A DNA stretch of 41,290 nt from a virus. The notes below the pieces were generated by a model. It searched no databases. It was not told the DNA's origin and saw nothing but the letters and a program-made list of their open reading frames with translations. The stretch is from positions 1 to 41,290 of IMG/VR virus record IMGVR_UViG_3300042876_000178. One strand, 5' to 3'. The translations under genes and the position numbers were made by a program. This document shows positions 503 to 41,290 of this stretch, piece by piece. The first letter of the stretch is position 1. Every line of letters begins with the position of its first letter.

Positions 503-522
503 CGTCTTGTCTTTCTTGTCAA
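495..522 (-). promoter_or_regulatory. Sigma70-type promoter for the DUF4116 gene and right operon
   Basis: Read on the minus strand: -35 TTGACA (522-517), 16-nt spacer, -10 TATACT (500-495). The transcript would start near 488 and enter the gene at 452. Its -10 shares four bases with the -10 of the opposing plus-strand promoter. Confidence 0.65.
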
Positions 523-543
523 GTGATACGAAATTAAATTTTT

Positions 544-2756: not shown

Positions 2757-2794
2757 CTTGACACTTTCGACAACTTGGATAAACTGACGGAACT

Positions 2795-3106
2795 ATGAAA
2801 AAACAAATAAAACTAGAGGCTCGGGAGCGTATCGCGCAAATCTTGCGTGCTGCCCTCGAAATCGCCCCAAAAAAGGGATATAACCGCATGACTCGCGACG
2901 ACATAGCCCACAAGGCAAACATTCCGCCGACGCTGATTACCTACCATTGCGGCACGATGCCCGACCTTCGCCGAGATATTATGCGCGAAGCGATCCGCGT
3001 CGAGTGCCTGCCGGTGATCGCGCAAGGTTTGGCCGTCCGTGATCGTCATGCACTCAAGGCCCCCGAAGAATTGCGCCGCCGCGCTTTACAATCTCTCGCA
3101 GAATAG
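2795..3106 (+). CDS. Short TetR-like HTH protein
   Basis: The 103-aa product begins with a classic TetR-family DNA-binding helix bundle (about residues 10-60: RERIAQILRAALEIA, then RMTRDDIAHKANIPP and TLITYHCG). A normal TetR protein has about 200 residues and a ligand-binding, dimerising C-terminal domain; here only about 40 residues follow. It sits in the early operon between nuclease and primase. It may be a phage transcription regulator acting on palindromic sites such as those at 9755-9885, but that is inference only. Confidence 0.7.
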   Translation: MKKQIKLEARERIAQILRAALEIAPKKGYNRMTRDDIAHKANIPPTLITYHCGTMPDLRRDIMREAIRVECLPVIAQGLAVRDRHALKAPEELRRRALQSLAE

Positions 3107-5473: not shown

Positions 5474-5503
5474 AAAAGGCCCCTTCGGGGGCCTTCGGTT
5501 TTA
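5471..5503. terminator. Bidirectional intrinsic terminator
   Basis: Eight-base-pair stem AAGGCCCC (5476-5483) / GGGGCCTT (5488-5495) with a TTCG tetraloop. On the minus strand it is followed by six T's (5477-5472); on the plus strand by CGGTTTTA. It separates the convergent left operon and the accessory block. Confidence 0.9.
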
Positions 5504-5716
5504 CTTCGCCCGGATGATCGGGGCCATACTGTACGACCCCCAAGGCTTGATAAATTCCGCGCCGTCATACTCGGCAACGCGGGAGGTCTTAGATTCGCCG
5601 CGAACCGTGGCGGTTACCGTCTTTGCCGTGCGCTTTTCGATAGTGACCGAGATTACGCAATCGTGATCGCACGCGCTGCGCGTTGTGTAGGTCTTGCCGA
5701 TTTCGAATTGTTGCAT
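5501..5716 (-). CDS. Small conserved hypothetical protein
   Basis: The 71-aa product belongs to a widespread small phage/plasmid family of unknown function, recognisable by FEIGKTYTTRSACDHDC near the start, the RTAKTVTATV stretch, and Tyr-Asp-Gly with PWGSYSM near the end. Two cysteines (CDHDC) could bind a metal or be incidental. It has its own promoter (5748-5776) and ends inside a bidirectional terminator, so it is a single-gene transcription unit. Confidence 0.8.
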   Translation of the reverse strand: MQQFEIGKTYTTRSACDHDCVISVTIEKRTAKTVTATVRGESKTSRVAEYDGAEFIKPWGSYSMAPIIRAK

Positions 5717-5747
5717 GGTTCGTTCTCCCCTGTTGTTGACGGTTTGA

Positions 5748-5776
5748 ATTATGCAATACGAAATTTAATTTTGCAA
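5748..5776 (-). promoter_or_regulatory. Class A promoter (copy 1)
   Basis: Minus strand: -35 TTGCAA (5776-5771), 17-nt spacer, -10 CATAAT (5753-5748). The spacer and flanks are nearly identical to copies at 8231, 9058 and 35179, followed by a leader with GGAG before the gene. Confidence 0.75.
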
Positions 5777-5792
5777 CACTTATTTTTCGCGC

Positions 5793-6284
5793 CTATCGAA
5801 CATTGACCAAAACGCGAAGGTGCAAACATTGGATATTGTGACCGCCCGCGCGGATCGTGCGGATTATTACCCGCTTAATCCCCGCGTCGGTTTTAACCGC
5901 GAAAACCCCGTCGAACCCGTCGCGCGTATGGGTAAACTCTTCGCTTAGGACTTCGGTTACCCCCGCTTTTTCTAATTTCGCTGCGATCTTGGCGTTACGT
6001 TGGCGAACGGTCGCCGCGCAATTCTTCTCGACGATAGCCTCGATCATCGCGTCGTTGCGGCCGTCGAAAACGTCGTACCAAGTTTTCCCGCCGGCGATCG
6101 CGTACAGGCGGCGGTAATAGCGGCCTTGATCGCGGCGCATTTCTTTGGCTTCGTCGGAGTCCTTGAACTCGCGCAAGGCTTGTTTGCGGCCCTTCGCCCA
6201 CACTTGGGAGGCGGCCAAAACTTCGGCGTCCATGGGGGAGAAAACTTCGTTCAATTTGGCGAGGATGGTTTGGGCGATTTGCAT
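5793..6284 (-). CDS. Hypothetical protein with MQIAQTIL leader
   Basis: A 163-aa product, not recognised beyond its first eight residues, MQIAQTIL, which it shares with the gene starting at 9023. Together with the common promoter-leader this suggests the 5' ends spread as a cassette. The middle is basic and helical (KGRKQALREF, RRDQGRYYRRLYAI); the C-terminal third is rich in beta-forming residues. No catalytic motif or membrane segment is visible. Confidence 0.72.
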   Translation of the reverse strand: MQIAQTILAKLNEVFSPMDAEVLAASQVWAKGRKQALREFKDSDEAKEMRRDQGRYYRRLYAIAGGKTWYDVFDGRNDAMIEAIVEKNCAATVRQRNAKIAAKLEKAGVTEVLSEEFTHTRDGFDGVFAVKTDAGIKRVIIRTIRAGGHNIQCLHLRVLVNVR

Positions 6285-6318
6285 TTCGTTCTCCGTCGTT
6301 GGGTTGTTGACGGTTTGA

Positions 6319-6348
6319 ATTATGCAATACGAAATTACCGCATGTCAA
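6319..6348 (-). promoter_or_regulatory. Class A variant promoter (copy 2)
   Basis: Minus strand: perfect -35 TTGACA (6348-6343), 18-nt spacer, -10 CATAAT (6324-6319). The -10 and leader match the other class A copies, but the upstream half differs. It drives 5793-6284 and begins just after the terminator at 6352-6377. Confidence 0.75.
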
Positions 6349-6351
6349 GCG

Positions 6352-6377
6352 AAAAAAAAGCCCCTCAAGCGAGGGGC
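6352..6377 (-). terminator. Intrinsic terminator of the 6416-7697 gene chain
   Basis: On the minus strand a 7-bp stem GCCCCTC/GAGGGGC with loop GCTT is followed by eight T's (6359-6352). It is placed 39 nt after the stop of the 29-residue membrane peptide gene. Confidence 0.93.
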
Positions 6378-6415
6378 CAAAAACGCGCGTTCCGGGGAGG
6401 AATAGTTCGCGCGTA

Positions 6416-6505
6416 TTATCCGCCGAAGGCGTAGATAATTCCGATTACGGCCAAGGCGAGACAGATCGCGCCGATCAAACAGTCGATAAAAATTTGGGCT
6501 TTCAT
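6416..6505 (-). CDS. 29-residue single-span membrane peptide
   Basis: A small gene whose ATG (6505) overlaps the stop of the preceding membrane-protein gene as ATGA. The product MKAQIFIDCLIG... is one hydrophobic segment (about residues 6-26) ending YAFGG. A perfect terminator follows. Being the last gene of a translationally coupled chain makes it more than a chance ORF. Possible roles are host-membrane interference or an exclusion/lysis accessory; nothing in the sequence decides between them. Confidence 0.65.
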   Translation of the reverse strand: MKAQIFIDCLIGAICLALAVIGIIYAFGG

Positions 6506-6762
6506 TTAGGGGCCGCGATCTTGGCGAGTACGATATCGCCCGTTTTCGGGGCCCCGAAGGTTACCGCCCACAAGTGCAGCCCTGCGACCGTGCGCGCTTC
6601 GTTTTGTGCCTCGATTTTGCCGATCTCCATTTGCAAGGCGGCGTGCCATAGGTGCAGCATGAGTGAGAGGGCCGCCGCAATGCCGAGCAAGGCAAGGGCG
6701 CGGCGGTGATTCTTAACGAATATGCCCCAGTTGTACCGGCGGCGGAAATGGAGGGTTTTCAT
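6502..6762 (-). CDS. Small membrane-anchored protein
   Basis: The 86-aa product starts at ATG 6762, which overlaps the previous stop as ATGA; a longer upstream reading frame is not needed. A basic head (MKTLHFRRRYNW) is followed by one membrane span (about residues 21-41) and a C-terminal region expected outside the cytoplasm by the positive-inside rule. Function is unknown. It is coupled to the 29-residue membrane peptide that follows, so the two may act together. Confidence 0.7.
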   Translation of the reverse strand: MKTLHFRRRYNWGIFVKNHRRALALLGIAAALSLMLHLWHAALQMEIGKIEAQNEARTVAGLHLWAVTFGAPKTGDIVLAKIAAPK

Positions 6763-7022
6763 TTTTCCCTCGAAAACGAAATCAGGGCCACGTCGGCAAG
6801 GCGTAGGCAAAGGCCCCCCGTGTCCCACCAATCGCCGCCCTCGCCCGTCGTGGCGTCTTCGATAAAGCGGCGCGCGTGGCGTATTGATTCCTCGCCTATC
6901 TGCAAAAAGGATAGGGGCGTCGGATCGCCGCGAAGCCATATTTTCAACCGCCATTTTTCCGGGCGGCAAATGATCTCTTTCGGTATTGCTTTTCCGCGCA
7001 ATCGTCTAATTAGGTTTCGCAC
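6759..7022 (-). CDS. Hypothetical protein
   Basis: The 87-aa product starts at GTG 7022 with a good ribosome site (AAAGGA) upstream, inside the end of the previous gene (17-nt overlap). It is basic at the N-terminus (RNLIRRLRGKAIPK) and has a Trp-Asp-Thr-Gly-Gly stretch (DWWDTGGLCLRLADVAL) that resembles a compact folded domain. I do not recognise the family. Confidence 0.65.
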   Translation of the reverse strand: MRNLIRRLRGKAIPKEIICRPEKWRLKIWLRGDPTPLSFLQIGEESIRHARRFIEDATTGEGGDWWDTGGLCLRLADVALISFSREK

Positions 7023-7167
7023 TTTTTTTAGTCCTTTCTTTTTTCGGTTTCACTTTGCGACATGCGGGCGGCTCGGGGTCGTTTACGTCCCATGCAAGCC
7101 CGCAACGACCGCAGCACATTTGATCAAGCTGCCGCCGCGCGCGGCAATCCTTGCGGGCGTTAGTCAC
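7006..7167 (-). CDS. Small Cys-rich (zinc-ribbon-like) basic protein
   Basis: The 53-aa product uses GTG 7167, which overlaps the end of the upstream gene (GTGACTAA); longer readings through the GC-rich antisense look spurious. CCGRC with later cysteines could form a metal site, and the C-terminus is strongly basic (KVKPKKERTKK), consistent with nucleic-acid binding. No family is recognised. Confidence 0.6.
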   Translation of the reverse strand: MTNARKDCRARRQLDQMCCGRCGLAWDVNDPEPPACRKVKPKKERTKKSAKPN

Positions 7168-7504
7168 GGGCGGGCCCCTCGTTCGCCATGCGGCGGAGTT
7201 CTGCGCGTTGACGTTCGGACAGGTGCAAGCCGGGGGCGGAGTCAATCTTACGCATGAAGGCCCCCAGCGTCCTCGCCTCGACCACTCGCAGCGCGTCGGA
7301 TGGGGCGGCGGAAAGTGCGGCGAGCCTCTTCGTTTCGGCAGCGTGGCCCAGCATGGAGCCGGAGAGCGGTATAAACGCAAGCGCGTCGCGCATCGCCTCG
7401 ACCGACGCGGCGAGTTCTGAAATTCGCGCTTCGTACTTGTCGCACACTTGGCCCCCGCGGCAATCCGGGTGATTGCATTCGCAAAAACGTTTTAGGTTAC
7501 TCAT
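7160..7504 (-). CDS. Hypothetical protein with Cys-rich N-terminus
   Basis: A 114-aa product. The first 25 residues contain CECNHPDC and a fourth cysteine (QVCDKYE), a possible small zinc knuckle, followed by a helical Ala-rich region likely to be a coiled coil (KYEARISELAASVEAMRDAL). The ATG at 7504 overlaps the upstream gene by 8 nt. Function unknown. Confidence 0.7.
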   Translation of the reverse strand: MSNLKRFCECNHPDCRGGQVCDKYEARISELAASVEAMRDALAFIPLSGSMLGHAAETKRLAALSAAPSDALRVVEARTLGAFMRKIDSAPGLHLSERQRAELRRMANEGPARD

Positions 7505-7697
7505 GATTTTCCTTCCGCGGTTCGTGTTTCAAAGTTGCGCGACCCTCGCGGATCACACTACGCGCCCCGCATCGGCACGTGTGGGTCGTCGGCTCGTACC
7601 AATGGGCAAAGAGCCACGCGGAAAACTCAGAGAAGCGGCCGCAATGGGCGCACGAGTAGCCGCGGGGGGTCAGGTTGGGGTTTTTGGCGGTAGTCAT
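7497..7697 (-). CDS. Small zinc-ribbon-like protein
   Basis: The 66-aa product has CAHC near residue 16 and CRC near residue 42 (YSCAHCGRF and HTCRCGAR), a plausible four-cysteine metal site. It is the first gene after the class B promoter at 7706-7733 and begins a coupled chain of six small genes ending at the terminator 6352-6377. Confidence 0.7.
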   Translation of the reverse strand: MTTAKNPNLTPRGYSCAHCGRFSEFSAWLFAHWYEPTTHTCRCGARSVIREGRATLKHEPRKENHE

Positions 7698-7705
7698 AGG
7701 GGGTT

Positions 7706-7733
7706 ATTATGTATTACTTGTCGGCGTTGTCAA
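7706..7733 (-). promoter_or_regulatory. Class B promoter (copy 1)
   Basis: Minus strand: -35 TTGACA (7733-7728), 16-nt spacer, -10 CATAAT (7711-7706). It shares an 18-bp block covering the spacer end and -10 with the promoter at 39043-39070. It lies across the last codons of the upstream gene (stop at 7714). Confidence 0.75.
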
Positions 7734-7983
7734 GAGCCGCGCGGGCGACGACCCGGCCCCCGGTAACAATCGGGAGCGTTCCCAAATTGAACCCTTGAAC
7801 GAAGTCGGTAATAACTTGTTTCGGGTCTTCGTAGGTTACCGCGTCCGGGCAGCTTTCGCGGATACGCCTATGCGCGGGGCTCAAACTCTTGGTACGGTAG
7901 GCGCACCCGACGGTTTCGGTTTTCCCCGCGTTCCACCCTTTGCGGCGTTTGATCGTGCGCGTGTAGACAGTAACGAAAGCCAT
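7714..7983 (-). CDS. Hypothetical protein
   Basis: An 89-aa basic product with a run of lysines and arginines (RTIKRRKGWNAGKTE) near the N-terminus and no recognised motif. ATG 7983 follows a ribosome site (AAAGGG) located in the last codons of the upstream gene, 3 nt away, so the two form an operon under the promoter at 8231-8259. Its 3' end contains the class B promoter for the next unit. Confidence 0.7.
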   Translation of the reverse strand: MAFVTVYTRTIKRRKGWNAGKTETVGCAYRTKSLSPAHRRIRESCPDAVTYEDPKQVITDFVQGFNLGTLPIVTGGRVVARAALDNADK

Positions 7984-7986
7984 GAT

Positions 7987-8199
7987 TTACCCTTTCAGTT
8001 CGACGCAAAAATAAAATTGTTTCCGGTTCTCGCTGTAGCCTTGGCGGCAATTCGGCATTTTACGGAACAGGCGCAGCGTTGCGATCTCCGAACCGAAGGC
8101 GTAGATTGCGCCGGCAATTTGTTGGAGGGCTACGGGCTCCCCCGCGATACGAGAGTAATCGGCTTCGGTGCGGGCGAGTTGGGCGGCGGTAGCTTGCAT
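7987..8199 (-). CDS. Small conserved hypothetical protein
   Basis: The 70-aa product resembles a small family seen in phages and plasmids of high-GC proteobacteria, with the pattern ...IAGAIYAFGSEIATLRLFRK followed by a Tyr/Phe-rich end (GYSENRKQFYFCVEL). Function unknown. It has its own class A promoter and the leader with GGAG before ATG 8199. Confidence 0.75.
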   Translation of the reverse strand: MQATAAQLARTEADYSRIAGEPVALQQIAGAIYAFGSEIATLRLFRKMPNCRQGYSENRKQFYFCVELKG

Positions 8200-8230
8200 T
8201 TCGTTTTCTCCGTTGCGTTAAGGTGTCGTC

Positions 8231-8259
8231 ATTATGCAATACGAAATTTAATTTTGCAA
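8231..8259 (-). promoter_or_regulatory. Class A promoter (copy 3)
   Basis: Minus strand: -35 TTGCAA (8259-8254), 17-nt spacer, -10 CATAAT (8236-8231). The downstream leader matches that of the copy at 35179 rather than that of 5748 or 9058. Confidence 0.75.
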
Positions 8260-8267
8260 CACTTATT

Positions 8268-8495
8268 TTACATTTCGGCCCGAATCCGTTCGCCGAGGTC
8301 TTCTATCCACGAAGCGAGGCTCAAGTGACAGAGGGCGAAAACATAAATCCCTGAGGTAACGAAAGGCTCGCCGCTACGGAAACGACCGGCCGCATAGAAG
8401 TACCCCTCGCGGGCGCGGATCAATTCGAATTCGGTAAGCTCGGGAATTTCGCGCTTGAGTGCGGCTTCGATATTTTTGCGGGTTGCGGTCGTCAT
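8268..8495 (-). CDS. Small conserved hypothetical protein
   Basis: The 75-aa product starts at ATG 8495, preceded by AGAGGG at good spacing. Its opening MTTATRKNIEAALK and the EGYFYAAGRF stretch mark a small phage/plasmid family I have seen as a separate protein. In this window the frame is artificially open further upstream (to 9023), so automatic calling gives a 251-aa fusion. I split it because of the internal start and the frameshift described for 8507-9023. Confidence 0.7.
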   Translation of the reverse strand: MTTATRKNIEAALKREIPELTEFELIRAREGYFYAAGRFRSGEPFVTSGIYVFALCHLSLASWIEDLGERIRAEM

Positions 8496-8506
8496 GACGG
8501 GGCCCT

Positions 8507-9023
8507 CTAGGCGAATTGGACGGAAAGATAAAGCCCCGAGCATTCCGGCCCGAGGGCGGGGTGCGCGGCCACGTAGGCGGCGGCTTCCGTGCGGGTAAAA
8601 CGTTTGGCTTCGGCCTTGCGCTCGACCAACTCGCCGTCGTCCCCGATATAGTACGTTCCGTCCTCGCACCCCGCGCGCTTGCTCAACGAGAGAGGCGAGC
8701 ATCCCGGGCCCGATCTCGCCCGCGGCAGGGTTGAGGCGGGCGACGCGCTCGGCGTACACGCCGCGGATCACCTCGCCGCACGCCTTGCAGTTGACGCCGC
8801 GCAGGTTGAAGAAATACACCCGGTAAGTGTCGTTCTCGCTCAATTTAACGCAAACTTTATTTGCCTTGTTCTTTGCGCCGCGGCCAATACGAAACATGAG
8901 GCCGCCGAGATACGCCCCGTCGCTATCGTGACCCTCGCCAAGCGAAACAAAGTCTTTCGCGCCGGTCATGGTGATAAAGCGATTACCGCCGAGTTGTTCG
9001 AGGATGGTTTGGGCGATTTGCAT
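8507..9023 (-). pseudogene. Frameshifted hypothetical gene (171 aa if one base is removed)
   Basis: The first part (MQIAQTILEQLGGNRF..., to LVEQARG) is clearly coding. From the run GGGG at 8672-8669 the protein-like sequence moves to another frame: CEDGTYYIGDDGELVERK..., ending YLSVQFA and TAG at 8509-8507. Removing one G makes a continuous 171-aa protein. In the frame as written, about 60 residues are Arg-rich nonsense (RGRRRVGRAQGRSQ) before the frame runs into the next gene. It may be an inactivating indel, a homopolymer sequencing error, or two genes whose boundary I cannot place. Confidence 0.65.
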
Positions 9024-9057
9024 TTTGCTCTCCGTCGTTGGGTTGTTGACGGTTTGA

Positions 9058-9086
9058 ATTATGCAATACGAAATTTAATTTTGCAA
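9058..9086 (-). promoter_or_regulatory. Class A promoter (copy 4)
   Basis: Minus strand: -35 TTGCAA (9086-9081), 17-nt spacer, -10 CATAAT (9063-9058). It precedes the frameshifted gene at 9023. Leader and promoter are nearly identical to those at 5748 and 6319. Confidence 0.75.
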
Positions 9087-9089
9087 CAC

Positions 9090-9287
9090 TTATTTTTCGT
9101 GCAGCCGGTAGGCAACAATATCGCCCCCGCTCGGCGGTTGCGCGTGACCCCAACGCAACTCGTCGGCGACGCTCCCTTGGGGGCGCATTACGGTGATCCC
9201 GCAGCGCAAGCGGTAGTCGACCAACGCCAGCACGGGCACGGGTCGCTCGCCGCCGTTCCATTCGATCCATTCGTGGCCGTCGGTCAT
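9090..9287 (-). CDS. Small conserved hypothetical protein
   Basis: The 65-aa product shows the pattern WIEWNGGERPVP near the N-terminus, then LVDYRLRCG and DIVAYRL near the C-terminus. This is a common small phage-protein family of unknown function in proteobacterial phages and prophages. ATG 9287 lies 2 nt after the upstream stop, so it is co-transcribed with 9290-9694. Confidence 0.8.
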   Translation of the reverse strand: MTDGHEWIEWNGGERPVPVLALVDYRLRCGITVMRPQGSVADELRWGHAQPPSGGDIVAYRLHEK

Positions 9288-9289
9288 GG

Positions 9290-9694
9290 TTAGGGCCTCG
9301 GCAGGTAGGGAGGGGCCGGCGGGGGCGTATGGGAGGCCGCGAGGGTTTGGCGGTGCCGTTCAATGTCGGCAGGCAACGCGGGCGGCTCGGCATGGCGGGG
9401 GGCCGGAGCCCCGGCGATCGCCTTCGGTACGTGCGGGGCGCGGCCACGTTGCAGGTCGAGGGCTTGGGCGTAGGCCAAGAGGGCCGCGTGGTCGTCGGGG
9501 TGTAACGGATAGGTAAAGACGCTCGCGGCGACCGCCCGGGCAAAGAGCTTTGATCGGGCCGCGTTGCAAGCCATGCAACCCCCGGTCGAAGTAAAACGGG
9601 CCGAGTCGTGACCGTACCGGCAAGGCTTGCCCGAGTAAAAATGCTTACGGCCTTGCGCGAATGCGTCGGCCCTTGAAATTATTTCGTGTTTCAT
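9290..9694 (-). CDS. Cys-rich phage protein (endonuclease-VII-associated zinc-finger type)
   Basis: A 134-aa product. Residues 1-50 carry a small Cys pattern: YSGKPCRYGHDSARF followed by GGCMACNAARS, as in zinc-binding heads found in many phage proteins, some fused to or next to HNH/endonuclease VII domains. The remainder is Pro/Ala-rich and probably disordered, ending PPPAPPYLPRP, so no nuclease domain remains here. It is the first gene of the accessory block, read from the promoter at 9722-9750 out of the AT-rich region. Confidence 0.65.
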   Translation of the reverse strand: MKHEIISRADAFAQGRKHFYSGKPCRYGHDSARFTSTGGCMACNAARSKLFARAVAASVFTYPLHPDDHAALLAYAQALDLQRGRAPHVPKAIAGAPAPRHAEPPALPADIERHRQTLAASHTPPPAPPYLPRP

Positions 9695-34747: not shown

Positions 34748-34962
34748 TTTACTTTCTCCCAAAAGTAAAACTGTTTGACGAAGGCCCGAACGAGATTCGC
34801 GGTTTTCGGGCCGCTCAAGATTAAACGCCCGCCCGCTTCGAAGCGCAGGCGGTAGCGGATATAAACCGCCCGAACACTCAAGACCCGGCCGCCTTTCACG
34901 ATATGCCCCTCGTCGTTCAAGGTCGCGCCGTATTCGGCGAGGGTATCTTTTACGATTTGCAT
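34744..34962 (-). CDS. Small hypothetical protein
   Basis: The 72-aa product starts at ATG 34962 inside the end of the upstream gene (13-nt overlap). The sequence (MQIVKDTLAEYGATLND..., RLILSGPKTANLVRAFVKQF) suggests a small alpha/beta fold, and the opening MQIVKDTL is reminiscent of the MQIAQTIL leader of two accessory genes. Function unknown. Confidence 0.7.
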   Translation of the reverse strand: MQIVKDTLAEYGATLNDEGHIVKGGRVLSVRAVYIRYRLRFEAGGRLILSGPKTANLVRAFVKQFYFWEKVK

Positions 34963-35147
34963 TTCGTTGTTCGGGCATTTAGCGCGGCTTGCTTTGACGC
35001 GGCGCACTTCGCGCACTTCTGGCCTTCCGGCATGGCTTTGAAGTCTTCCCAATTCGCCGAAAGCGGCGTGCGAAGAATGTTACGACCGCAAGCGGTGCGT
35101 ACTGCCATTCCGTTTCCCGATTTGTTCAAGTGCATTTGGCGACTCAT
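34950..35147 (-). CDS. Small conserved Cys-containing protein
   Basis: A 65-aa member of a small family common in proteobacterial phages: SRQMHLNKSGNG, TACGRN and QKCAKCAASKQ. The four cysteines (C20, C45, C48, and C63 in TTKCKS) could hold a zinc ion. First gene after the class A promoter at 35179-35207. Confidence 0.8.
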   Translation of the reverse strand: MSRQMHLNKSGNGMAVRTACGRNILRTPLSANWEDFKAMPEGQKCAKCAASKQAALNARTTKCKS

Positions 35148-35178
35148 TTCGTTTTCTCCGTTGCGTTAAGGTGCGGCC

Positions 35179-35207
35179 ATTATGCAATACGAAATTTAAT
35201 TTTGCAA
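35179..35207 (-). promoter_or_regulatory. Class A promoter (copy 5)
   Basis: Minus strand: -35 TTGCAA (35207-35202), 17-nt spacer, -10 CATAAT (35184-35179). It is almost identical to the copy at 8231, 27 kb away in the window, including the leader and the AAAAATAAGTG upstream flank. Confidence 0.78.
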
Positions 35208-35216
35208 CACTTATTT

Positions 35217-37592
35217 TTATTCCTTGCGGTACCGTCGGCCGCGCCAGCCGCCCGCCGCCCGGATAGGCCACGGTTTGCCCTTGTAGACGGCCCATTCCGG
35301 CATCGTGCCCATGATGCGCTCGACCTCTTCGATACTGCCGAAACCGTGCGGCACCTCTACCACGTCCTCGTCGTACACGTGCAGCACGACCGGATAGGCC
35401 GCGCGCTCAAGGTTAATAATCGCGCTTCGTTGAATGTCCCGCGCGACGGCTTGTACAACGTTTTCGCACAACTTGCCGCCGTAAGTATCCATTCGCACCC
35501 AGCCGACCGGCCCTTGCATGGGGTTAGTGTTATACCCCTCGAAACTCAACGAGTATTGCCCGCCGAAGCCGCGTTGATTGGCCGACAACCGCGGGGCGTG
35601 GTAGGTAAGCGCGCGGCCCGAGGGAAGCCAACAGTAAAGCGCGTCGCCGTGGCAAATGTAGGATACCCCCGAGTGCGAGCCGTCGAGGCGCATCACGGGG
35701 AACCATTGCCCGGGCGAGAGTACCGCCGCAACCGCCATACCTTCGAGGCCGAACAATTCCGCCCGCCGCTCCCAGCCGTCGCGCCGTTCTTGCCCGCCCC
35801 AAAAATGCGGGATCGCGGGGGATGCATCGCGCCATGCGAGGATCGCTTTTTTAATCTCGTCCTCGGTCATGAAGTCGCCCGCGCCGAAGCGTAACCAAGC
35901 GTTAATCCAGCCCCCGAAGCCCGAGGCCAGTTCGGCGACCTTGCCGAGCGTTTGGCGCAAGGGGTGATGCGGTTTCGTCTTGTCGGCGCGATGTTTCCAC
36001 CATTCGGGCCGCCCCACGTCGTCAAAGCCCGCGTGCGCCATGATCTCGGCGAAGGGTATGCCGGTGATCTTGGAAACGCTCAACTCGTACGCCTTGCCGT
36101 GCGTGGCGAACATTTCGACGCGCCAATCCTCCCCCGCGAGGCAAGCGGTAACGACGCCCTCGATACTGGAAAAATCCGACGCTATGAAGTCGTGCCCGTC
36201 GGCGGCCACGAACAGCCCCCGCAGGCACCCGGAAACGCACAACATCGCGTCGGCGTAGGCGCGTTCGACCAAGGCGAGGTCGCCGGTCTTTATGACCTGC
36301 AAAACGTCTTCCATTGCGTCGGGGCCCCATTCGGCTTTCTTTTTGCCCGGGGGGAACGGCAGGCCGCACCACGCGCACGCGGTCAAATGCGCGCCCGTGT
36401 GGCGACCGCAAGCGCACTTGAATACGCTCGGGCCGGCCTTCGGCAAGTTGGTCGGCTGGGGGCCTTCGCCGGTCGGGCGACCCGTGCGCGCCCCGTGGTA
36501 ATTAAACAGGTCATGCAAGCGGCCCCACGGCGAAAGCTGGTTTCGCATGGCGAAGACCTTTTTAACCGACGCACTCCCGACGGCTTGCCGGATTTCAAGG
36601 GCGCGGCGCGCGAGAGCTTGGTGCGGTTGCAGCGATTCCAAAATACTCGCGATGCCGTCTTCGTCCATTGAGCCGGGGCCGCTGCCGACGTAAACGCCTT
36701 GGCCCGCGAGCCAACCTTTCAGGCGTTCGAGTTGGCTCGCGCGTTCGACGGCCCCGCCGGTTAGCTGGTACAATTCGGCGTCGTATCGTTGCAAACAGAT
36801 TTCGACAAGCCGCGCGCAGGCGAGCAAGTCGTCGCGATCCACGGCCACGCCCCGCCGGTTTATGCGCTGATCCGCGAGCCAAAATTCTAATTCTTCGCCG
36901 GTCAAGTCGGGGCACTTCGCCGACGCTTCGGCCTCGGCCAGAATGTCGCGATCGTTGTATCGGTACAGAGCGTCGAAATCGGCGGGCGCATCGGCAGGGG
37001 TCAAGCGCAACCGCGGGTTGCTTTTGGTCGGATTGCGCGGGATCGACAATTTCGTAAGCAACGCCGCCCCGGCTTTATCCTTGGGCGTCGTGAGCCGCAT
37101 TACCTCGCCGGCTTTGTCGAGTGCGCCGGGATAGCCGCTCGCGCGAGCCTTGCCCATGGCGCACCGGGTTTGTTCGATCGGCAACGGCGGAAAGCCGTAT
37201 TTCGGCAGGCATACATAATTCCAAATCCACCACTCGAACGCGCTGTTCCATGCCTCTATGATGCCGCCTTGCGCGACGTGGGCTATCAGGTCGGCGGGCA
37301 ACTCGCCGCCTGCGCTGGGTACCCAACGGCGCGGCCCGCGGCCGTTTTTCAGGTTGTAGGCGAGCGATAAAACTTCGGTCGTCGGGTGCGTGGCGTAAAT
37401 GGCCGCACCTACGACGCCGAGGCCTTTTTGCCCCTTGCGCGCTCCCGGCGGCCCCGTCCATTTTTGCGCGGCGAAATCGTAGACGCAACCGGCCTCGCTA
37501 TAGGTTTCGAAGTCGATATCGGGGAGCGCAGTTGCAAGGCCAAGCCCCGCGGGTAGCTGGGCGCCTGCGAGAAGGTCGGCGGGGTGAGTCAA
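35217..37592 (-). CDS. DNA polymerase, family A with 3'-5' exonuclease
   Basis: Replicative polymerase, 791 aa. The exonuclease opens with DIDFETYSEAG (Asp27, Glu29). Polymerase motif A is DFSSIEGVVTACLAGEDWR (about residue 470), motif B-like GKVAELASGFGGWINAW (fingers helix with Lys), and motif C VYDEDVVEVP (about 735). A CACGRH...CAWCGLP cluster between exo and pol regions may bind zinc. The start is TTG 37592 with GAGGAA five bases upstream; no ATG fits. It is co-transcribed with SSB and the Cas4-like nuclease upstream. Confidence 0.92.
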   Translation of the reverse strand: MTHPADLLAGAQLPAGLGLATALPDIDFETYSEAGCVYDFAAQKWTGPPGARKGQKGLGVVGAAIYATHPTTEVLSLAYNLKNGRGPRRWVPSAGGELPADLIAHVAQGGIIEAWNSAFEWWIWNYVCLPKYGFPPLPIEQTRCAMGKARASGYPGALDKAGEVMRLTTPKDKAGAALLTKLSIPRNPTKSNPRLRLTPADAPADFDALYRYNDRDILAEAEASAKCPDLTGEELEFWLADQRINRRGVAVDRDDLLACARLVEICLQRYDAELYQLTGGAVERASQLERLKGWLAGQGVYVGSGPGSMDEDGIASILESLQPHQALARRALEIRQAVGSASVKKVFAMRNQLSPWGRLHDLFNYHGARTGRPTGEGPQPTNLPKAGPSVFKCACGRHTGAHLTACAWCGLPFPPGKKKAEWGPDAMEDVLQVIKTGDLALVERAYADAMLCVSGCLRGLFVAADGHDFIASDFSSIEGVVTACLAGEDWRVEMFATHGKAYELSVSKITGIPFAEIMAHAGFDDVGRPEWWKHRADKTKPHHPLRQTLGKVAELASGFGGWINAWLRFGAGDFMTEDEIKKAILAWRDASPAIPHFWGGQERRDGWERRAELFGLEGMAVAAVLSPGQWFPVMRLDGSHSGVSYICHGDALYCWLPSGRALTYHAPRLSANQRGFGGQYSLSFEGYNTNPMQGPVGWVRMDTYGGKLCENVVQAVARDIQRSAIINLERAAYPVVLHVYDEDVVEVPHGFGSIEEVERIMGTMPEWAVYKGKPWPIRAAGGWRGRRYRKE

Positions 37593-39042: not shown

Positions 39043-39070
39043 ATTATGTATTACTTGTCGAAAAAGTCAA
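39043..39070 (-). promoter_or_regulatory. Class B promoter (copy 2) for the SSB gene
   Basis: Minus strand: -35 TTGACT (39070-39065), 16-nt spacer, -10 CATAAT (39048-39043). The last 18 bases equal those of the promoter at 7706-7733. It lies in the final codons of the Cas4-like gene. Confidence 0.75.
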
Positions 39071-40204
39071 GCGGGCTTTTTCGCCATTGTCGAAAGTGAG
39101 CTTTGCGGTACCGGCGGGCCGCGATGCGAAGGCGTCGAAAATCTCGCCTTGTATCTTGGCCGCCTTCGCCGCCGCCTTGGCTTGCGTGGGCGTGATTACC
39201 TCTTGCGGTTTGGCGAGATCGAGGCCGAGCATTTGACCGAGGGCCAAAATTTCCGCCGCGGATTTTTGCCACGCTAAACGCCCCGGGGTCGATTCGAGCA
39301 TCCAGAACGGTACCAACTCGCCGCGTTTGATCTTGGCAATCGCTTCGGCTTCCAACCCCGAAACGCGCGCCTCGATCAAGGCTTGCGCCCGTTTGAGCGA
39401 ACGCAATTCGAGGCCCAAAGCGTGCGGAGGTAAGTCGAGGGCCCCGTAGTGCGCGCCCCGATCGGCCGCCGCGTACGCCGCGCGCTGTAACGCCTCGCAG
39501 GCGTGGCGACCTTGGCAATTCTCGCAACCCTCGGGCGTCGGTACCGCTTCCGGGTCGGCCGCGAGGGCCTTACGCGCTTGGTTCGAAAGTTGGTTAAAGT
39601 GCGCGCGCAAATCGGAAGCGGTCACGCGCCAACGTCGCACGGGGCCCTCGCGGTGAAATGCCCGGGGTTGGATCACGCACATGTCGACGACGGTTTCTTG
39701 ATCTTGCAAACCGTCGATGCCCGCCTCGCCCAAAAGCCCCGCCGCGTAGTCGATAAGCTGCCAATTCTCGAACGCTTCGACGATGCCGTGCCCGTACTTG
39801 AAATCCCATACGTGCAGGCAAAGGCGGCCATTGTTGAGCCGCGACCACGCGCGATAATCCGGCGTGCCCCAATTGTGCGTCGGGTGTATGCGCGGGATTT
39901 GCACCCGGCGTTCGACGACAAGGTACTGCGCCCAATCCGGCCCGAGCGTTGCGAGTATGTCGTCGCGCACCATTTCGGCGGCTTCGAGCATGTCTTGGGT
40001 TACGGCGATCCCGTTCGGGGCCTGCATATCGAGCGCGACCGGCGTACCCTGCAAGAGCATTTGCACCGCCCAATGCGCGGCCGTCCCTTCGAGGCTTGAC
40101 GGGCTGGCCTCGATTTCCGGGTAAGCCGCCTCAAGGCTTGCCGAGAGGGCGCAGCGCACCCAACGGAAAGCCGAGGACGGCGCGAGGAAAGCGTGCGCGC
40201 TCAT
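39044..40204 (-). CDS. Cas4/RecB-like PD-(D/E)XK nuclease (DUF2800)
   Basis: A 386-aa recombination nuclease of the DUF2800 family. ATG 40204 overlaps the upstream stop (ATGA); the earlier open frame is not used. Likely active-site residues are His44 (GTAAHW), Asp116 (GTPDY), Asp134 and Lys136 (WDFKYG) and Gln149. Cys18, Cys227, Cys230 and Cys236 (CENCQGRHAC) have the spacing of the iron-sulfur cluster of Cas4/AddB. It probably resects ends for SSB-assisted annealing. Confidence 0.88.
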   Translation of the reverse strand: MSAHAFLAPSSAFRWVRCALSASLEAAYPEIEASPSSLEGTAAHWAVQMLLQGTPVALDMQAPNGIAVTQDMLEAAEMVRDDILATLGPDWAQYLVVERRVQIPRIHPTHNWGTPDYRAWSRLNNGRLCLHVWDFKYGHGIVEAFENWQLIDYAAGLLGEAGIDGLQDQETVVDMCVIQPRAFHREGPVRRWRVTASDLRAHFNQLSNQARKALAADPEAVPTPEGCENCQGRHACEALQRAAYAAADRGAHYGALDLPPHALGLELRSLKRAQALIEARVSGLEAEAIAKIKRGELVPFWMLESTPGRLAWQKSAAEILALGQMLGLDLAKPQEVITPTQAKAAAKAAKIQGEIFDAFASRPAGTAKLTFDNGEKARLTFSTSNT

Positions 40205-41093: not shown

Positions 41094-41290
41094 TTAGAGA
41101 TTAAACAGCTTTGCGAGCTTTTCGAAAATTTCGAAAAGCAACACGTATCGCAGCGCGTCGCCGTTACGCTTCACGGCTTCGAGGCACACCGCTTCGGTCT
41201 GATCCTTCACGTATCGCAGCGCGTAGCCGTCATTCTTCACGGCTTCGAGGCACACCGCTTCGGTCTGATCCTTCACGTATCGCAGCGCGT
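41094..41290 (-). CDS. DUF4116-type tandem-repeat protein, C-terminal part
   Basis: This is the end of the repeat gene that begins at 452 on the other side of the circular junction. After the last repeat unit (ending NGDALRYV) the protein closes with LLFEIFEKLAKLFNL and TAA at 41096-41094. Bases 41164-41290 duplicate 1-127, so only 41094-41163 is unique here. Those 70 bases plus the 452 on the left give 522 nt, exactly 174 codons. The stop lies 17 nt upstream of the next gene (40201-41076), and both genes carry the same leader, GAAAGGTACTCAA, before ATG. Confidence 0.72.
   Translation of the reverse strand, partial: ALRYVKDQTEAVCLEAVKNDGYALRYVKDQTEAVCLEAVKRNGDALRYVLLFEIFEKLAKLFNL
41164..41290. 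repeat. Exact copy of 1-127 (circular-assembly overlap)
   Basis: This is the second copy of the end duplication. Removing it leaves a 41,163-bp circle and keeps the repeat gene in frame across the junction, whereas joining 41290 directly to 1 would break the frame and drop five bases of a unit. Confidence 0.85.

Follow-up and report, generated by a model that had tools for sequence, protein, structure and literature searches.

Small accessory genes in the viral genome studied here (IMG/VR record IMGVR_UViG_3300042876_000178, positions 1 to 41,290; this whole stretch of 41,290 nt is called the window below) stand behind a repeated promoter-leader unit, named class A, and comparison with relatives revealed that this promoter family shows concerted evolution, its copies agreeing within each genome but diverging across genomes. 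This is the more interesting fact and it is invisible from one genome. Our main reading, to which we assign a probability of roughly 0.7, is that class A units are self-contained early promoters at few slots, that genes are exchanged behind them and that the copies are homogenised within the genome.

The window is a myovirus-like genome of ~41 kb, bearing genes for tail sheath, baseplate, terminase, polA, an SF2 helicase and a DUF5906 helicase, and the two ends of the record overlap by 127 bp. Relatives of its polA include Shewanella SppYZU01, Stenotrophomonas B2 and Vibrio VP16T. The regions 1-497 and 41142-41290 carry 66-nt tandem repeats, which encode on the minus strand a 22-aa repeat protein (NDGYALRYVKDQTEAVCLEAVK); we take this repeat to recall DUF4116. 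There were no prophage signs, and no integrase was present among the proteins scanned (part of the ORFs). Bacterial genomes searched via polA and via the unit pattern returned no host, and megablast of 7 kb of the window against phages gave no match. Close relatives, with identity up to about 90%, were obtained from IMG/VR by polA and DUF5906 searches. The exact 29-nt window unit had no match in viral contigs, because every phage has its own version; degenerate unit patterns then worked and, scanned over 2.9 million viral contigs, mostly returned the records already found with polA and DUF5906. The records named below are G001 (IMGVR_UViG_3300034191_000017), G002 (3300025030_000028), G006 (3300045051_000603), G008 (3300008448_000206), G010 (3300009576_000001), G011 (3300022744_000048), G021 (3300042876_000236), G022 (3300032024_000049), G023 (3300022468_000903), G024 (3300028006_000001) and L030 (3300034078_000008).

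Across the whole window, ATTATGCAATACGAAAT occurs exactly at 5748, 6319, 8231, 9058 and 35179 (minus-strand reading of the promoter: ATTTCGTATTGCATAAT). Only 0.05 copies are expected by chance, none of 100 shuffles reached five, and allowing up to three mismatches added no further match. Four copies read TTGCAA-17-CATAAT on the minus strand (5776-5748, 8259-8231, 9086-9058 and 35207-35179), in agreement with the near-identical promoters reported in the initial annotation; the variant it placed at 6319 is TTGACA-18-CATAAT, with a terminator-like hairpin directly before it. Matches to the sigma70 hexamers amount to 9/12 for the former, TTGCAA agreeing with the -35 consensus at only 4/6 positions, and to 11/12 for the latter, with spacing within 16-18 nt. 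The A-tract AAAATAAG lies just upstream of the -35 in the four TTGCAA units, and in each of the five units a sigma70-like promoter is followed by a leader of ~30 nt, with a ribosome-binding site, up to the ATG. Judged from their sequence, class A units are likely to be active promoters. All five face the minus strand, that of the early/accessory genes, and the late genes on the plus strand have none; they are established in the accessory stretch at 5.5-9.8 kb and just after polA. A stem-loop is not part of each unit: in the window a hairpin lies directly upstream only at the 6319 unit, and visual inspection showed hairpins at individual units of G002, G008, G006, G022 and G023. A near-palindrome in the window unit (CAAAAT-TAA-ATTTCG) was considered and rejected, as it did not exceed chance. 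The units and their genes are:

5501..5716, minus strand: 71-aa accessory gene (g71), with orthologues behind a unit in G008, G002 and G023
5717..5786, minus strand: class A unit with A-tract, TTGCAA-17-CATAAT and leader type 1, before the 71-aa gene
5793..6284, minus strand: 163-aa accessory gene starting with MQIAQTIL; the start of the G011 orthologue differs (MQTIINQLNEVF)
6285..6348, minus strand: variant of the class A unit with TTGACA-18-CATAAT and a type 1 leader, matching the 9058 unit in the -10 half, the leader and the first 8 codons
6359..6378, minus strand: terminator-like hairpin immediately upstream of this variant, an arrangement also present in G008 and G002
7987..8199, minus strand: 70-aa accessory gene (phrog_26253)
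8200..8269, minus strand: class A unit, leader type 2, before the 70-aa gene
8268..9023, minus strand: ORF beginning with gene X (LGGNRF..MTGAK family; phrog_9437, with a phrog_9154 match at the 3' end)
9024..9096, minus strand: class A unit, leader type 1, before gene X
34950..35147, minus strand: 65-aa accessory gene in the hypervariable post-polymerase slot
35148..35217, minus strand: class A unit, leader type 2, immediately at the stop codon of polA, before the 65-aa gene

As previously noted, the leaders are of two types, type 1 sharing TCAAACCGTCAACAAC among 5748, 6319 and 9058 and type 2 sharing a CACCTTAACGCAACGGAGAAAACGAA end between 8231 and 35179. Positions 6260-6336 and 8999-9075 form a repeat pair (77 nt, 97%), and so do 8197-8269 and 35145-35217 (73 nt, 96%). 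The likeness of 5748 and 9058 spans the A-tract to mid-leader and that of 8231 and 35179 the A-tract to the ATG, while 6319 and 9058 have the -10 half, the leader and eight codons in common and differ in the -35 half. Three different copy boundaries in the window indicate recombination, by which the unit copies would have been made. MQIAQTIL, also known to be common to two genes, is the start of both the 5793-6284 and the 8268-9023 ORFs. Homology of these genes was rejected, given that X and the 163-aa protein align over the first 11 residues only, and the common start is a copied tract. It was probably copied from gene X into the 163-aa gene of the window, because the G011 orthologue starts differently. 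Separately, in the 8268-9023 ORF a deletion appears to have joined gene X to the middle part of the adjacent GEIGPGM gene; G008 and G010 have GEIGPGM as a gene of its own.

Nearly every relative bears its own unit flavour before small accessory genes, usually in 3-6 copies, with one flavour common to G002 and G008; the search of relatives for the unit before unrelated genes, suggested in the initial annotation, was thus positive. Examples are GTGTTGCAAAATTAAATTTCGTATTGCATAAT in the window, GTATTGCGTAATTCGATTTCGTGTTGCATAAT in G001, GTATTGCATAACTCTGTTTTGTGTTGCATAAT in G010, GTATTGCGTTATTTGATTTCGTGTTGCATAAT in G011, CTTGACATTCCGTATTTCGTATTACATAAT in G002/G008 and GGTTGACAACGGGTAATTTCGTAATACATAAT in G006. 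Over 48 aligned positions, mean unit identity is 0.857 within a genome; between genomes it is 0.606 before orthologous genes or in the same slot vs 0.607 for unrelated pairs. None of 10,000 label shuffles reached the within-genome value, in a permutation of genome labels that ignores phylogeny and in which G002 and G008 share a flavour. The comparison by region covered nine genomes with several units, sister genomes being left out of the between-genome set, and gave within/between identities of 0.91/0.66 for the -35, 0.91/0.46-0.47 for the spacer, 0.93/0.80 for the -10, 0.75/0.50 for the leader and 0.57/0.52 for the A-tract. Similarity is absent further upstream (0.27/0.26), which makes the 5' boundary of the unit sharp. 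As far as roughly the stop codon, the 3' end of the window polA is 89% identical to that of G001 and 86% to that of G008, whereas identity drops to 62% and 52%, respectively, in the unit that follows immediately.

A unit precedes the gene in every family member examined for gene X (8/8), the 71-aa gene (4/4), the 163-aa gene (2/2) and, in relatives, the NNQRR gene (5/5); relatives carrying X, the 71-aa or the 163-aa gene without the unit, the outcome contrary to the initial annotation, were not seen. One relative has a unit before its GEIGPGM gene; in two others this gene is located downstream of X and lacks a unit. Since the gene-unit association is stable in most orthologues, the term "mobile cassette" may exaggerate the frequency of gene movement, and unit turnover in place explains much. 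Genes do occur at different loci: preceded by a unit of the local flavour, NNQRR lies on the accessory region's terminase side in L030 and G002, on its DUF5906 side in G006 and in the post-SSB/polymerase region in G011 and G022, and the positions of X, NNQRR and the "KILGT.DAV" gene vary from phage to phage. The first gene in the post-polymerase slot differs in nearly every phage. The region upstream of X is repeated elsewhere in the locus in 15 of 42 X loci, drawn from this family and other phages, vs 29 of 314 control ORFs (p=2e-5, an optimistic value because the loci include close relatives and are not all independent), and X homologues tend to lie behind repeated upstream units in other phages, e.g., L165, L169 and L186. 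Other isolated distant relatives checked for a class A-type repeat gave a mixed outcome. Acinetobacter phage Scuro (L081 11662-23130) bears its own repeated promoter sites of the TTGACA-N4-TGTCA type, with TGACA..TGTCA symmetry. In G010 and G011 (L065 1653-4404; L066 11600-14280), the interval from the SSB gene to the next unit yielded no polA homologue, and a different polymerase may stand in its place.

The order in G008 and G002 is terminator-promoter-leader-g71, unlike the window, where the 163-aa gene and a further unit stand between the terminator/promoter and g71. This supports insertion of the 163-aa gene with its unit in the window, loss in G008/G002 being the alternative polarity. 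The earlier suggestion that accessory genes are inserted with their 5' unit is supported by this gene; however, the unit is homogenised within each genome and therefore does not simply travel unchanged. A moron is an autonomous gene with its own promoter and terminator, located between conserved phage genes and expressed in the prophage. The genes described here, although likened to moron cassettes before, are probably not morons in the usual sense: they show no prophage sign, lie on the operon's strand and mostly lack a terminator of their own. Co-regulation by one factor and insertion or duplication may both act, and the earlier reading, right in outline, is partly supported.

A second promoter class, class B, is characterized by the palindrome CTTGAC-N6-GTCAAG, found in the window (up to two mismatches) at four places:

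506..523, no strand assigned: class B palindrome between the SF2 helicase gene and the divergent 22-aa-repeat gene
2757..2774, no strand assigned: class B palindrome at the promoter of the TetR-like gene
2795..3106, plus strand: TetR-like DNA-binding protein, 103 aa, candidate class B regulator (TetR_N E=5e-5, just below the Pfam cut-off; phrog_8723 E=1e-27)
7706..7734, minus strand: class B promoter/palindrome before the 66-aa gene
39043..39071, minus strand: class B promoter/palindrome before the ssDNA-binding/annealing protein gene

One more site, at 9607, probably arose by chance, with 0.7 sites expected per genome. The TetR-like protein is little more than a DNA-binding part. Class B is probably the regulon of this protein, which would act as an autoregulating repressor, because the palindrome also stands at the promoter of its own gene. 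Extending that regulon to the class A units could draw on the presence of the TetR-like gene across the family and on a CTTGAC half-site kept in some class A copies. The full palindrome, however, is restricted to class B sites, the promoter of the TetR-like gene included, and is missing from class A units; its places recur in relatives and, unlike the changing class A, it is conserved throughout the family. We consider such an extension very improbable. Almost equally improbable are ordinary repeated sigma70 early promoters, alike by common ancestry only, without homogenisation or gene exchange. All copies fit the host promoter type, and X, g71 and NNQRR are each stably associated with a unit, as this explanation would have it, but it also predicts that orthologous units are most alike across genomes. 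The identity data contradict this, as do the polA 3' ends, 86-89% identical to G008/G001 next to such divergent units.

A stronger competitor, to which we would give somewhat less than even odds, is operator-driven co-evolution: the spacer would bind a fast-evolving phage (or host) regulator, selection for one regulon and not copying would keep the copies alike, and the flavours would correspond to groups of regulatory specificity like those of heteroimmune phages. Although constraint on sigma70 spacers is normally low, the within-genome spacer identity here equals that of the hexamers and falls to 0.47 between genomes. Palindromes (e.g., TAGATAAATAATTTATCTA) are present in the class A spacers of four distant relatives, G022, G023, G021 and G024 (shuffle p 0.001-0.02, best copy each); they mostly differ per lineage, G022 and G023 sharing one type. 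In the four TTGC flavours tested near the window, the -10 region recurs instead over the -35 as a 20-bp direct repeat (p 0.0004-0.023). On the other hand, the spacer palindrome of the window flavour is not beyond chance (p=0.35), the one TTGAC close-relative flavour tested has no such direct repeat (p=0.38), and a scan of 90 early proteins for a helix-turn-helix regulator common to early regions, which could miss one, gave only weak scattered hits. Leaders and first codons are copied too, which a regulator reading the spacer does not need. The case for an operator thus comes mainly from phages other than the window; an operator in class A spacers is plausible, weakly so in the window, and a regulator may read it. 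We find it doubtful that the whole is a dispersed, concerted promoter-operator family of lytic-looking phages, with specificity changing between close relatives, a putative regulator, a private regulon per lineage and accessory genes plugging in by recombination at the units.

Our preferred reading of self-contained early promoters, homogenised within each genome, starts from what was observed directly, i.e., the units, their placement before unrelated genes, their homogenisation, the mosaic copy boundaries, one insertion and the same genes at different loci. Each unit would comprise an UP-element-like A-tract, the -35, a sequence-specific spacer, the CATAAT -10, a short CAA-rich leader and a ribosome-binding site, and would serve as an early promoter for the host RNA polymerase. 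Such units would occupy a few slots in early modules, behind which small accessory genes would be gained, lost and moved, either by recombination between repeated units or with the unit attached. Recombination or copying, probably together with selection for shared regulation, would keep the copies alike within a genome, and each phage lineage would therefore have its own flavour. New genes may use the unit as a socket to plug into.

Class A units resemble several known systems, and the defining features of none of them are all present. T4-type phages reportedly carry "mobile regulatory cassettes", repeated early promoter cassettes with a stem-loop before small accessory genes, proposed to serve module shuffling. 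The likeness lies in a repeated early promoter unit before unrelated small accessory genes, also in related phages; the differences are another phage group and sequence, a homogenised flavour per lineage, the lack of a hairpin in most copies and the presence of a second, palindrome-bearing promoter class. The SAS/ESAS of Cluster K mycobacteriophages is a dispersed conserved element just upstream of the start codons of many unrelated genes, the ESAS consensus, with inverted repeats, being derived genome by genome (PMC3203893). Class A shares the dispersed element near the start of unrelated genes and a consensus per genome; SAS, however, is a 13-bp element adjoining the start codon (PMC3203893), whereas class A is a whole promoter with leader. 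The stoperators/operators of Cluster A mycobacteriophages are likewise dispersed sites with genome-specific motifs varying together with the phage (PMC6550527), but most stoperators are not associated with promoters, and their repressor is known (PMC6550527), whereas no class A regulator turned up among the 90 early proteins scanned and nothing points to lysogeny.

These data offer a concrete and testable view of how early control stays correct for accessory genes that a phage has newly acquired, with promoters evolving like a multigene family, alike inside a genome and unlike between genomes. The units also provide a search handle, the gene after each repeated unit in this family being a candidate accessory gene with a possible anti-defence or host-takeover role.
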